Source of the DNA: Rhizodiscina lignyota
Lineage: Eukaryota; Ascomycota; Dothideomycetes; Aulographales; Rhizodiscinaceae
DNA: 64,000 bases
Reading direction: 5' to 3'
Assembly: GCA_010015805.1 (NCBI GenBank)
Contig: ML978125.1
Span: 1,178,001 to 1,242,000 of the forward strand
The position numbers were made by a program, and so were the translations under genes. This document shows, piece by piece, positions 25,078 to 28,971 of this stretch; position 1 is the first letter of the stretch; every line of letters begins with the position of its first letter. The notes beneath the pieces were generated by a model. That model worked only from the letters and a program-made list of their open reading frames with translations. It was not told where the DNA came from and made no database searches.

Positions 25078-28000
25078 ATGTTCAGAAGCGCCCTCCGCCA
25101 GTCAACCCGCGCGGTCGGGGCTTTCTCTGCTACTGGCAGAGTTGCTTCGGTAAGTTGATCACCACCGATTCACTTCGATTCACTTCAATTCGTGCGCAAC
25201 ACACCGCCAGTACCAGCTTCACTCACCGCCTTGAACTCCACTTCTTTGTTCTAAGGCTGTGTTGAGTGGCGCTGGCGCGAATTGAGACTCTCTTTGAAGC
25301 TTCGAGCTTTTGCAGCAGAGCACTGACATTTCCTCCCTTTCGCAGAGCCGAACCGCACCCGCCGCCTTCAACATCGCCTCAAAACAGATCAGAGGCTACG
25401 CCGAGGCGAAGGCCACTCCAACCGAAGTTTCTTCCATCCTCGAGCAGAGAATTCGTGGTGTTCAGGAAGAGGCAGGCCTTTCCGAGACCGGCCGTGTCCT
25501 GTCTGTCGGGTATGTCCTACGGTGTCAACTTCAAGATTTCAATCACCGAGACATAAGTTGGTTGAATGAAGCTAACGTGCGGTATATAGTGACGGCATCG
25601 CTCGTGTCCATGGCATGAACAATGTCCAGGCCGAGGAGCTGGTCGAGTAAGTTTTTCTCAGCAGCGGCAGGAACGCAGTTTACTGACACGACTGCAGGTT
25701 CGCGTCTGGTGTCAAGGGCATGTGCATGAACTTGGAAGCCGGCCAGGTCGGTGTCGTCCTCTTCGGTTCTGATCGTCTCGTCAAGGAGGGTGAGACTGTC
25801 AAGCGCACCGGCGAGATTGTAAGCACTCTCTACTCAGCGTCGCACATGCACTTACTGACCATCTGCAGGTCGATGTCCCTGTCGGCGAAGCACTCCTGGG
25901 CCGTGTCGTTGATGCGCTCGGCAATCCCATTGATGGCAAGGGCCCGATCAAGACGACCGAGAGGCGCCGTGCCCAGCTCAAGGCTCCTGGCATTCTCCCC
26001 CGCCGCTCAGTGAACCAGCCTGTTCAGACCGGCCTTAAGTCTGTTGATGCCATGGTCCCTATCGGCCGCGGCCAACGTGAGCTTATCATTGGCGACCGTC
26101 AAACTGGCAAGACTGCCGTCGCTCTTGACGCCATGCTGAACCAGAAGCGATGGAACAATGGCAACGACGAGAGCAAGAAACTCTACTGCATCTACGTCGC
26201 TATTGGCCAGAAGCGCTCCACCGTGGCTCAACTTGTCAAGACTCTTGAGGAGAACGATGCCATGAAGTACAGCGTCATCGTTGCTGCCACTGCTTCTGAA
26301 GCAGGTATTTCTTCTTTTTACTCCTGTATATCCCACTGACTAACCTCCACTAAAGCACCGCTGCAATATCTGGCACCGTTCACCGGTTGTTCTATGGGTT
26401 AGTTGATTTTTCATTGTCGCATTTTCCTTATTTCCAAACCGGTTCGATTCTCTTCATGTAACCGCACCTTCCTCGGACACGATGGGCACCTTCCCCGGAC
26501 ACCATGGACGACGCGTCTGCCTGGACTCGACTCTGGACGTCGCTTCCTCATGGACGATGGTCTGCCTGGACTGGATCATGGATAAATTGCTGGATTCCTT
26601 CGCTGTCAAATTCGGCATTGTCGAATTCCCTCTGCACTCAATCCTCGTCTACGACTTCGCTGCACCGCGCAATTCTCAACCAATTCGTCTCCGCTCACGC
26701 TCATTGTCACAATGTCTGCAATGTCTGCACTGTCCGCGCTTCGCTCAATTGTCGATGGTTACATGATTGAAATCATCAGTGCCGATTCACCCGACTGGTT
26801 TATCAATCGGAGCTTCAAAGTGGTTTTGTGCGCGGAGAGTCTCGACATCTGTGCGGCTGTGCCGCTTACTTTCGCTCGCGGCATGAGCGCGGTCCTTGAT
26901 TCTGACAGCCCGCCTTCTCTCGACTTCTTCATGTCTCTTCCCGACCCAACTCAGTACTATTGGGCCGTCTATGCTGCGGTCCTGGAGAAAGATGGTTGCG
27001 ACCCCAAACTCTATATTGGATCGGGGACCAATGCCGACGATGGTTGCACCACGCGCACCGCCATTTACGAGGACAAGACTCATCCAAAATTACCTCGATT
27101 CGTCCGTTTGGCATACGATCAAGGCTACGATCTTAGTCACATTGGCATGCTATGCTGGGCTCCGCTTCCTTCCGCGGCCATCGTTCCACGAGCAAGGCTT
27201 CGCTTCGTTGCTATCGAGGGCGTCTTCACATGCCTCTTCTACTCCGCGTTCCATAACATGATGGACAAGATCTGCATTGACTTCATGCCCTGGTCTCGCG
27301 ACGATGTTGTCTGGGCCCCGGCCAATAGCCACTTACCGTTCATGGAGGGCCCCATCGGCGATCTCAACTTGACTCCGGACGAATTACTCGCTATAGACAC
27401 TCAGAAAAAAATCGACTACATTGAGCGAAAGCGTCGTGAGTCCCGGGAGGCCTCTGAGCAGCTCAGGCAGAACACCATGGCTTGGCGTCAGGAAGTCGAG
27501 CGAGTTAAGCAACTTGAGAGGGCTCGGCGCGAAGAAGAAGCTGCGGAAGACGAGACCATGGACGAAGCTGCACCCGATCCTGAGCGTGAGGCGTATAATG
27601 CTAGGAAGCGCAAGGAAAAATCAGCTTGGACCGACAAGAACAGAGACAAAGTACATGTTCAGCACGAACGCACACGCGAGACAGCAAAAGCCAAACGGAG
27701 GTTTGTCTGCGACGACTGTGATTTAGCGCTTGCCAACTCCTCTGGACTCAAGAAACACCTGGCTTCGGACGCCCACGCACAGCAAGTCGCCATCAATCAG
27801 GGTACTGCTAAGCCTGGGCTGTCGTCGGGTGCAATAGCAGCAAAAACTCACGCCGCCAAAGCGAAAGCCAGTAAACGCCACTATTGCGGACCATGCGACC
27901 ATGCGTTCGCACAGGCCAAACATCTCGAGAAGCACAAGCTCAGCAAGAAGCACCTCCGGACAGTCGCATCCATCTCGTAGAATCATCTCGAGATCTCACT

Positions 28001-28971
28001 ACGACTTTCTTCAGTTGTTTCGTTTCTCAATTCTTCTCTCTTCAGTCTTGTCGACATGTCTCGAGCTCACAGTCTAATCTATTCAAACTTGCAGGGGAAT
28101 TCTTTAGGGACTCAGGGAAACAGTATAGCCCCCTACGTTCTTGGAGTTTCGGGCGACGCTAATATATAAATAGTGCTGTTATTGTCTACGACGATCTGTC
28201 CAAGCAAGCTGTAGCTTATCGACAGATGTCTCTGCTTCTCCGCCGTCCGCCAGGTCGTGAAGGTGCGTTACAAACCTAGACGGGTGCATTCGATTATCGG
28301 CTAACTCATTTATGTAAGCCTATCCGGGAGATGTGTTCTACCTCCACTCGCGCCTTCTCGAGCGTGCGGCCAAGATGAACGACAAGCACGGTGGCGGCTC
28401 TCTCACTGCTCTGCCAATCATCGAGACCCAGGGTGGTGATGTGTCTGCCTACATTCCCACAAACGTCATTTCCATCACCGACGGCCAGATCTTCTTGGAA
28501 GCCGAACTCTTCTACAAGGGTGTCCGTCCCGCCATCAACGTCGGTCTGTCCGTGTCCCGTGTCGGCTCCGCCGCCCAGCTCAAGGCCATGAAGCAAGTCG
28601 CCGGTTCCCTCAAGCTCTTCTTGGCCCAGTACCGTGAAGTGGCCGCCTTCGCCCAGTTCGGCTCCGATCTCGATGCCGCGACGAAGCAGACCCTGAACCG
28701 TGGTGAGAGGCTGACGGAGCTGCTGAAGCAGAAGCAGTATTCTCCCATGGCTGTCAACGAGATGGTGCCCCTTATCTTCGCCGGTGTCAACGGACATCTC
28801 GATAGCGTGCCCGTCAAGAGGATCCTTGAGTGGGAGGCGGATTTCTTGGCACACTTGAGGAGCAATGAGAGCGAGCTGCTTGCACAGATTGACCGCGAGG
28901 GTGCGCTCAGCAAGGAGCTGGAGGGCAAGCTGAAGGATGTCGTGCAGAGCTTCACCAAGAGCTTCTCGTAG
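25078..28971 (+). CDS. ATP1: Mitochondrial ATP synthase F1 subunit alpha
   Basis: Nine exons (25078-25149, 25346-25509, 25590-25646, 25698-25818, 25869-26304, 26356-26397, 28095-28122, 28174-28262, 28319-28971) join to 553 aa, the normal fungal length. A mitochondrial presequence [20 protein letters not shown] is followed by the alpha chain: Walker [34 protein letters not shown], then [40 protein letters not shown] and the C-terminal helical domain. It is a structural/regulatory subunit of the F1 catalytic hexamer. The gene is unusual because intron 6 is 1,697 nt and contains a nested ORF. Exon 7 is only 28 nt. Every junction fits, so the host gene looks functional. Confidence 0.95.
26398..28094 (+). 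other. 1.7-kb ATP1 intron carrying a nested ORF
   Basis: The intron begins GTTAGT after the codon fragment TCT ATG G and ends TTGCAG before GG GAA TTC, inside the Gly codon of [11 protein letters not shown] (phase 1). The other eight-exon-flanking introns of this gene are 51-196 nt. Removing exactly this segment restores the conserved ATP1 protein. It contains a leader of about 310 bp, the 422-aa ORF and about 115 bp of 3' sequence with a CTAAT branch-like motif near 28076. No group I or II core was recognised by eye, so spliceosomal removal is inferred from GT-AG ends. Confidence 0.85.
26712..27980 (+). CDS. GIY-YIG-like nuclease with two C2H2 zinc fingers, nested in ATP1 intron
   Basis: This uninterrupted 422-aa frame lies wholly inside ATP1 intron 6, same strand. 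Residues 83-175 match the GIY-YIG nuclease plan: YWAVYAAVL (GIY position), [18 protein letters not shown] (YIG at 101-103, Arg115), [12 protein letters not shown], and [17 protein letters not shown] with Glu169 at the metal-ligand position. Residues 235-330 are highly charged and probably helical. Two fingers follow: Cys333/Cys336/His349/His355 and Cys392/Cys395/His408/His414, both C-X2-C-X12-H-X5-H. The architecture (nuclease plus DNA-binding fingers) suits a site-specific endonuclease. A nearer start may exist because Met1 and Met4 are close. Related sequence at 6.3-7.2 kb is broken. Activity and expression are inferred. Confidence 0.8.
   Translation: MSAMSALSALRSIVDGYMIEIISADSPDWFINRSFKVVLCAESLDICAAVPLTFARGMSAVLDSDSPPSLDFFMSLPDPTQYYWAVYAAVLEKDGCDPKLYIGSGTNADDGCTTRTAIYEDKTHPKLPRFVRLAYDQGYDLSHIGMLCWAPLPSAAIVPRARLRFVAIEGVFTCLFYSAFHNMMDKICIDFMPWSRDDVVWAPANSHLPFMEGPIGDLNLTPDELLAIDTQKKIDYIERKRRESREASEQLRQNTMAWRQEVERVKQLERARREEEAAEDETMDEAAPDPEREAYNARKRKEKSAWTDKNRDKVHVQHERTRETAKAKRRFVCDDCDLALANSSGLKKHLASDAHAQQVAINQGTAKPGLSSGAIAAKTHAAKAKASKRHYCGPCDHAFAQAKHLEKHKLSKKHLRTVASIS

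Follow-up and report, generated by a model that had tools for sequence, protein, structure and literature searches.

Why does the gene for a core subunit of the mitochondrial F1-ATPase hold a complete open reading frame (ORF) inside one of its introns? The question is raised by ATP1, the gene for the alpha subunit, in a 64,000-nt stretch of Rhizodiscina lignyota contig ML978125.1, hereafter called the window. This window lies on contig C5, in a genome of 33.4 Mb and 29 contigs, and the source, judged by gene structure, appears to be a filamentous fungus. An earlier note on this DNA had proposed that the ORF encodes a GIY-YIG homing endonuclease with two zinc fingers, which uses a spliceosomal intron as its safe site. 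We found an intact relative of the ORF in a large intron of ATP2, which encodes the F1-ATPase beta subunit, an ancient paralogue of alpha. Coordinates of all features are collected in Table 1.

The sixth intron of ATP1 is 1697 nt long, compared with 50-196 nt for the remaining seven; the short introns near the insertion measure 51, 51 and 56 nt. It begins with GTTAGT, ends with CTTGCAG and contains a branch-like CTAAT whose end lies 16 nt upstream of the next exon. When this intron was left out, the ATP1 protein aligned to chain A of PDB entry 5fl7, which we take to be a yeast structure, with no gap at the junction (930 bits). The coordinates given in the earlier note for the GT-AG intron and for the complete 422-aa ORF on the same strand proved exact.

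The length of the ORF was not matched in any of 1000 sequences generated by a second-order Markov model trained on the intron (maximum 410 aa, mean 166 aa). The two C2H2 fingers that had been read from the letters were recovered by the Pfam zf-C2H2 profile (E=3.4e-5, two stretches, 24.5 bits, just under the cut-off of 25.2), and the protein from the ATP2 intron passed the cut-offs of zf-C2H2_jaz and zf-met. GIY-YIG nucleases are described by an ordered set of residues, namely a GIY...YIG motif, a central Arg and a C-terminal Glu (PMC1564403). By eye, the ATP1-intron protein follows this order with AVY in place of GIY. The AVY, YIG, R115 and E169 residues named earlier are indeed present, and the ATP2-intron protein shares Y87, Y101, G103, R115 and E169. 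A third, broken copy in the window retains the G, R and E, and its second Y is replaced by C. Both intron ORFs have good-looking start contexts, CACAATGTC and ACCATGG.

When the ATP1-intron protein (copy A) was used as a tblastn query against its own genome, five segments at three places were matched: copy A itself, C21:92653-93774 (copy C) and the broken copy in the window (copy B). The copy C protein matched the same three places and gave one weak, finger-only match (E=0.001); in both searches the match counts are lower bounds. Copy C is intact, with 406 aa from its ATG, and is 38% identical to the ATP1-intron protein. It is nested in ATP2 on the same strand, within an intron of 1497 nt (GTGAGT...GTAAAG, with a branch-like GCTAAC), while the remaining five ATP2 introns measure 49-82 nt. 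The spliced ATP2 protein aligned to chain D of 5fl7 with a gap-free junction. By their sequence features, both large introns appear to be canonical spliceosomal introns whose removal restores the ORF of the host gene. A search of both against Rfam at E<=10 returned two and three matches, respectively, all sub-threshold and unrelated; neither intron matched a group I or II model over threshold. On this search we rejected a group I intron; an intein was rejected as well.

The positions of the two introns carry the argument. In ATP1 the insertion falls in SM-G/EFFRD (the slash marks the insertion), 2 nt before the Glu codon, and in ATP2 it falls in TG/LTVAEFFRD, where 12 nt separate it from the homologous Glu codon downstream. 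In the homologous alignment the two points are 10 bp apart, on the same strand. The chance that a random second insertion comes to lie 10 bp or less from one of three paralogous sites is about 2e-6 (63 / 33.4 million), so that directed insertion is the economical reading. Both of the intact copies found in the own-genome searches (2/2) sit in F1 alpha and beta, and the broken third lies outside any recognised gene, a distribution that points to target-gene specificity. In two V-ATPase-like genes of this genome, named from their PF00006 matches, the homologous place is uninterrupted. The exons around the site are identical between ATP1 and ATP2 at 30 of 63 nt, and a blastn comparison of the ATP1 intron with the ATP2 locus gave no match at E<=0.1, indicating that the two introns do not stem from a recent duplication.

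An intact relative near the homologous position of the paralogue argues for site-directed insertion and for a homing-type intron. We consider it reasonably probable that the ATP1 and ATP2 introns are site-specific mobile introns of the nucleus that follow the logic of homing but rely on the spliceosome instead of a ribozyme. The encoded protein would bind the sequence around EFFRD, which is highly conserved in F1-ATPase alpha and beta, and would cut alleles that lack the intron. Repair would then copy the whole intron, probably with some flanking exon, into the cut allele. Because the spliceosome would remove the intron from the mRNA, the vital gene would keep working. Occasional cutting of the paralogue could bring one lineage into both ATP1 and ATP2. 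The idea of a homing element in a spliceosomal intron was thus strengthened by the ATP2 twin; its assignment to the GIY-YIG family fared less well, as described below.

EFFRD itself stands beside both insertions, in alpha (window 28095-28122) and in beta (5386-5415 of the ATP2 locus, L008). The corresponding residues are EWFRD in the alpha chain and EYFRD in the beta chain of 5fl7, and EYFRD in a bovine-type alpha chain. The EFFRD of alpha and beta could be a shared change at the target site. Both genes are flanked by pieces of the same dispersed repeats, at ~24325-24833 and ~29412-30440 around ATP1 and at 971-1224, 2331-2402 and 6477-7520 of L008 around ATP2. A query with one of these repeats (29400-30250) had at least 46 matches genome-wide, itself included, and the flanking of both genes may be incidental.

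Copy B bears on the extent of the mobile unit. It lacks an ATG at the aligned start, is interrupted by a stop codon and a change of frame, and is truncated, so that only the 5' end of the unit can be compared. Its homology to copy A begins at about the 5' splice site of the ATP1 intron, indicating that mobile unit and intron agree at this end. Within the leader that precedes the ORF, the larger block common to A and B is better kept than the synonymous sites of the ORF, which are saturated. This suggests a function, for instance as a promoter, splicing or translation signal; the folding of the leader was not unusual (z = +1.1). The 3' flank of copy B (7507-7683) matches C9:729690-729867 (71%, E=1.6e-12).

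The same boundary speaks to the idea that the ORFs independently colonised two older, short introns, by chance or because introns of strongly expressed genes are favoured. Short introns do occur nearby in ATP1, which makes pre-existing introns at both places conceivable. The homology of copy B, however, starts at about the splice site and not within an older intron, and such colonisation would have had to place both intact copies in the two F1 paralogues, on the same strand and 10 bp apart. We regard this explanation as very improbable.

If repair copied flanking exon together with the intron, the exons next to the insertion would look foreign. We assessed codon adaptation, judging ATP1 by the preferences of ATP2 and ATP2 by those of ATP1. 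Within 20 codons of the insertion, ATP1 scored 0.42 compared with 0.69 elsewhere, a difference reached in 0 of 20,000 synonymous permutations; distances of 10, 30 and 40 codons likewise gave 0 of 20,000. A tract of codons ~281-337, whose limits were picked after the profile had been viewed, scored 0.39 against 0.72. This is what would be expected of a co-converted foreign flank. In a control, the less adapted exon of the V-ATPase-A-like gene, 41-codon windows near the homologous site scored 0.33 and 0.47 (0.54 overall). A low value alone is therefore not rare, and the contrast within ATP1 is the unusual part. The low tract also contains three short introns besides the large one.

Other causes of the dip have to be considered. 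Splicing constraints on the two small exons (42 and 28 nt), such as a need for enhancers, could produce it. Leakage of repeat-induced point mutation (RIP) is not favoured, as the tract includes rare codons that end in G (CCG, GGG, AGG). At the protein level, the 67-aa tract matched a bovine-type alpha chain (130.8 bits) better than alpha chains that we take to be from yeast (122.6-125.1 bits), while for the whole of ATP1 these presumed yeast chains were best (881-930 bits; next chain <=833). With few variable residues and a comparison that holds no sequence from a filamentous fungus, this is only a hint that the tract is foreign.

Several results weigh against a homing nuclease in these introns. 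The first concern the protein, for which the earlier note had suggested a profile search and a structure prediction. No significant nuclease match was obtained with Pfam (whole proteins and trimmed domains), with NCBIfam and PHROGs, or among PDB sequences queried with single sequences and a three-sequence profile. The hhalign comparison with seven phage T4 GIY-YIG domains aligned 7 columns at 1% probability. We also built a GIY-YIG hidden Markov model (HMM) from 12 sequences, one of which (L048) was cut outside the domain. Trimmed domains of A and C scored 1.9 and -0.4 bits, values matched by 1 and 3 of 300 shuffled sequences, respectively, and trivial in absolute terms. Copy B was not scored by the model, full-length ORF A was not among the six best of the 161 window ORFs, and an unrelated window ORF reached 5.8 bits, above A. 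AlphaFold2, run on alignments of 3 and 2 sequences, gave no confident fold (predicted local distance difference test, pLDDT, 44.3 and 41.9).

Other points concern the sites. The two insertion points are near each other yet not identical, while homing re-uses one site exactly. The lowest 41-codon window of ATP1 is centred on codon 302, and the window centred on the insertion (codon 297) ranks 30th of 478. ATP2 showed no dip in codon usage at its insertion (p 0.27-0.59), so that a general rule is unsupported, and searches with the flanks of copy B did not find ATP1 or ATP2 sequence there.

The GIY-YIG label thus applies at the level of motifs, and membership in the superfamily was confirmed neither by profile nor by fold. 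Leaving that membership aside, we infer that the ORF product behaves like an intron-encoded site-specific element. A search of the genome with PF01541 at E<=10 returned only two other loci, C3:2836580 (L002, 26.4 bits) and C10:422275 (L001, 51 bits), and not the intron ORFs. The locus on C10 is probably SLX1. The tblastn searches with the intron ORFs matched neither place.

As the fingers are supported and the nuclease is not, the ORF might be an ordinary nested host gene for a C2H2 protein that serves the cell, perhaps as a regulator, and that spread by duplication and was kept by selection for this role. The good-looking start contexts and the intactness of both ORFs agree with this, as does their divergence. 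Between A and C, the nonsynonymous divergence (dN) was 0.64 over 382 codons, with synonymous sites near saturation; between A and two pieces of B it was 0.38 (81 codons) and 0.29 (119 codons), with synonymous sites near or at saturation. The intron proteins are apparently under purifying selection and have persisted over a long period. A decayed ORF in all relatives, which the earlier note named as part of one case that would refute its proposal, is not what this genome shows: two of the copies are intact and seem selected, and the third is broken. Duplication of a host gene, however, does not account for the arrival of the second copy in a paralogue of the first one's host, 10 bp off the homologous site, or for the lack of flanking intron DNA common to the two. 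We consider a host gene of this kind unlikely.

The introns might also have moved without an endonuclease, by reverse splicing or by ectopic conversion through the similarity of alpha and beta, with the ORF as a passenger or an RNA-binding helper. A loose mechanism of this sort fits the 10-bp difference between the sites, and the ATP1 and ATP2 exons are homologous. Furthermore, MING-1 introns of mirusviruses are target-specific and lack nuclease residues (PMC12768974). The 30/63 identity of the exons is nevertheless poor for conversion, and the two introns have no detectable DNA in common; it is the coding sequence that is conserved. Movement of this type seems to us quite unlikely.

Returning to the homing-type intron, we searched for further relatives of its protein. 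In DNA searches of its own genome, the 5' part of the element found only A and B, and the 3' part only A. A pattern search gave four matches, namely A, B, C and one on C16 in a frame with many stops. No relatives were found by tblastn among phages and plasmids, collections not built for fungi and hence of low weight here, nor in IMG/VR (three queries) and GTDB genomes, neither of which is built for fungi. The degenerate pattern LCWxPxP...PRxR had 0 matches in IMG/VR and 9 in GTDB. We judged these nine to be chance matches, with a stop in 8 of the 9 printed frames; tblastn against the nine loci gave short pieces, the best (L056) at E=0.003 over 61 aa with 31% identity and stops in frame. Similar proteins appear to occur in other fungi, which we treat as a lead and not as evidence.

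Table 1. Positions in the window of ATP1, its large intron, the nested ORF and the related copy B.
Feature	Position	Strand	Basis or remark
Host gene ATP1 (mitochondrial F1-ATPase alpha), 9 exons and 8 introns	25078..28971	+	Gene model and PDB alignment
ATP1 intron of spliceosomal type, candidate mobile unit (copy A)	26398..28094	+	GT-AG, branch-like CTAAT, gap-free spliced protein
ATP1 exon of 42 nt, 5' of insertion	26356..26397	+	Gene model
ATP1 exon of 28 nt, 3' of insertion; starts inside G codon of SMG/EFFRD; low codon adaptation	28095..28122	+	
Flanking exon sequence, 5' and 3' of insertion, of unusual codon usage (codons ~281-337)	26298..28262	+	Tapers into next exon
Nested ORF, 422 aa, candidate endonuclease	26712..27980	+ (host strand)	ORF, tblastn, alignment with ATP2 copy, dN
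GIY-YIG-like motif region, residues 84-172 (WAVYA, LYIGSGT, R115, LCWAPLP, E169)	26961..27227	+	Motif conserved with ATP2 copy; no profile or fold confirmation
C2H2 finger 1, residues 331-355	27702..27776	+	Pfam zf-C2H2
C2H2 finger 2, residues 390-414	27879..27953	+	Pfam zf-C2H2
Intron leader before ORF, with blocks also present in copy B that set in near the 5' splice site	26398..26711	+	Alignment, blastn
Leader block of 24 nt, 10 nt into the intron, with 23/24 identity to copy B	26408..26431	+	DNA search, blastn
Leader block (~100 nt), 78% identical in copy B	26487..26588 (B: 6390-6486)	+	DNA search, blastn, dN/synonymous comparison
Copy B, broken truncated relative	6307..7218 (approx.)	+	No ATG at aligned start, in-frame TAG 6851-6853, frame change, then TAA

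GIY-YIG homing endonucleases of the I-TevI type reside in group I introns, such as that of the T4 td gene and those of fungal mitochondria. Like them, the ORF described here is intron-encoded, shows the Y/YxG/R/E order, has a separate DNA-binding part and sits in a conserved host gene. It differs in that no self-splicing intron was found, AVY is combined with YIG or YTG, no profile matches and the host gene is nuclear. The closest published kind appears to be the shintrons of mirusviruses, which are spliceosomal introns that carry nucleases of HNH, GIY-YIG and other types and prefer certain target genes (PMC12768974, Nat Microbiol 2025). As portrayed there, they have in common with the ATP1 and ATP2 introns the GT-AG borders, a candidate endonuclease ORF, the absence of group I or II features, conserved hosts and target-gene preference. 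Shintrons are viral, whereas the introns studied here lie in nuclear housekeeping genes of a cellular genome, encode a protein with two C2H2 fingers, occupy a near-identical site in two paralogues and encode a putative nuclease of a family that no profile confirmed. No cellular shintron was found by title or start of abstract in an open-access library, outside which lie most subscription journals and bioRxiv. Introners, defined as groups of introns with high DNA similarity (PMC12768974), are likewise spliceosomal introns that multiply; the ATP1 and ATP2 introns, in comparison, have only a protein and a target in common and so do not form such a group.

Inteins and group I introns favour conserved sites; an insert there has to be lost precisely, and becoming resistant carries a high cost (PMC2814812). 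The F1 core seems to be such a site. Inteins in the catalytic subunit of the V-ATPase, as treated in that article, offer a parallel, being selfish elements in a highly conserved part of a rotary ATPase related to F1-beta. They are removed at the level of protein, whereas here removal would be needed at the level of RNA.

Taken to its full extent, the interpretation would be that of a family of spliceosomal homing introns in a cellular nucleus, which encodes a zinc-finger nuclease, targets the F1 alpha/beta core, has jumped between ATP1 and ATP2, has left co-converted flanks in ATP1 and acts as a natural gene drive. For this combined claim we find the balance about even. If the spliceosome can indeed replace the ribozyme in cellular genes, some ordinary introns would be, or would descend from, selfish drives. 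Such elements would offer a concrete way for conserved sites to gain introns, and would serve as a natural model for drives that persist by residing harmlessly inside an essential gene.

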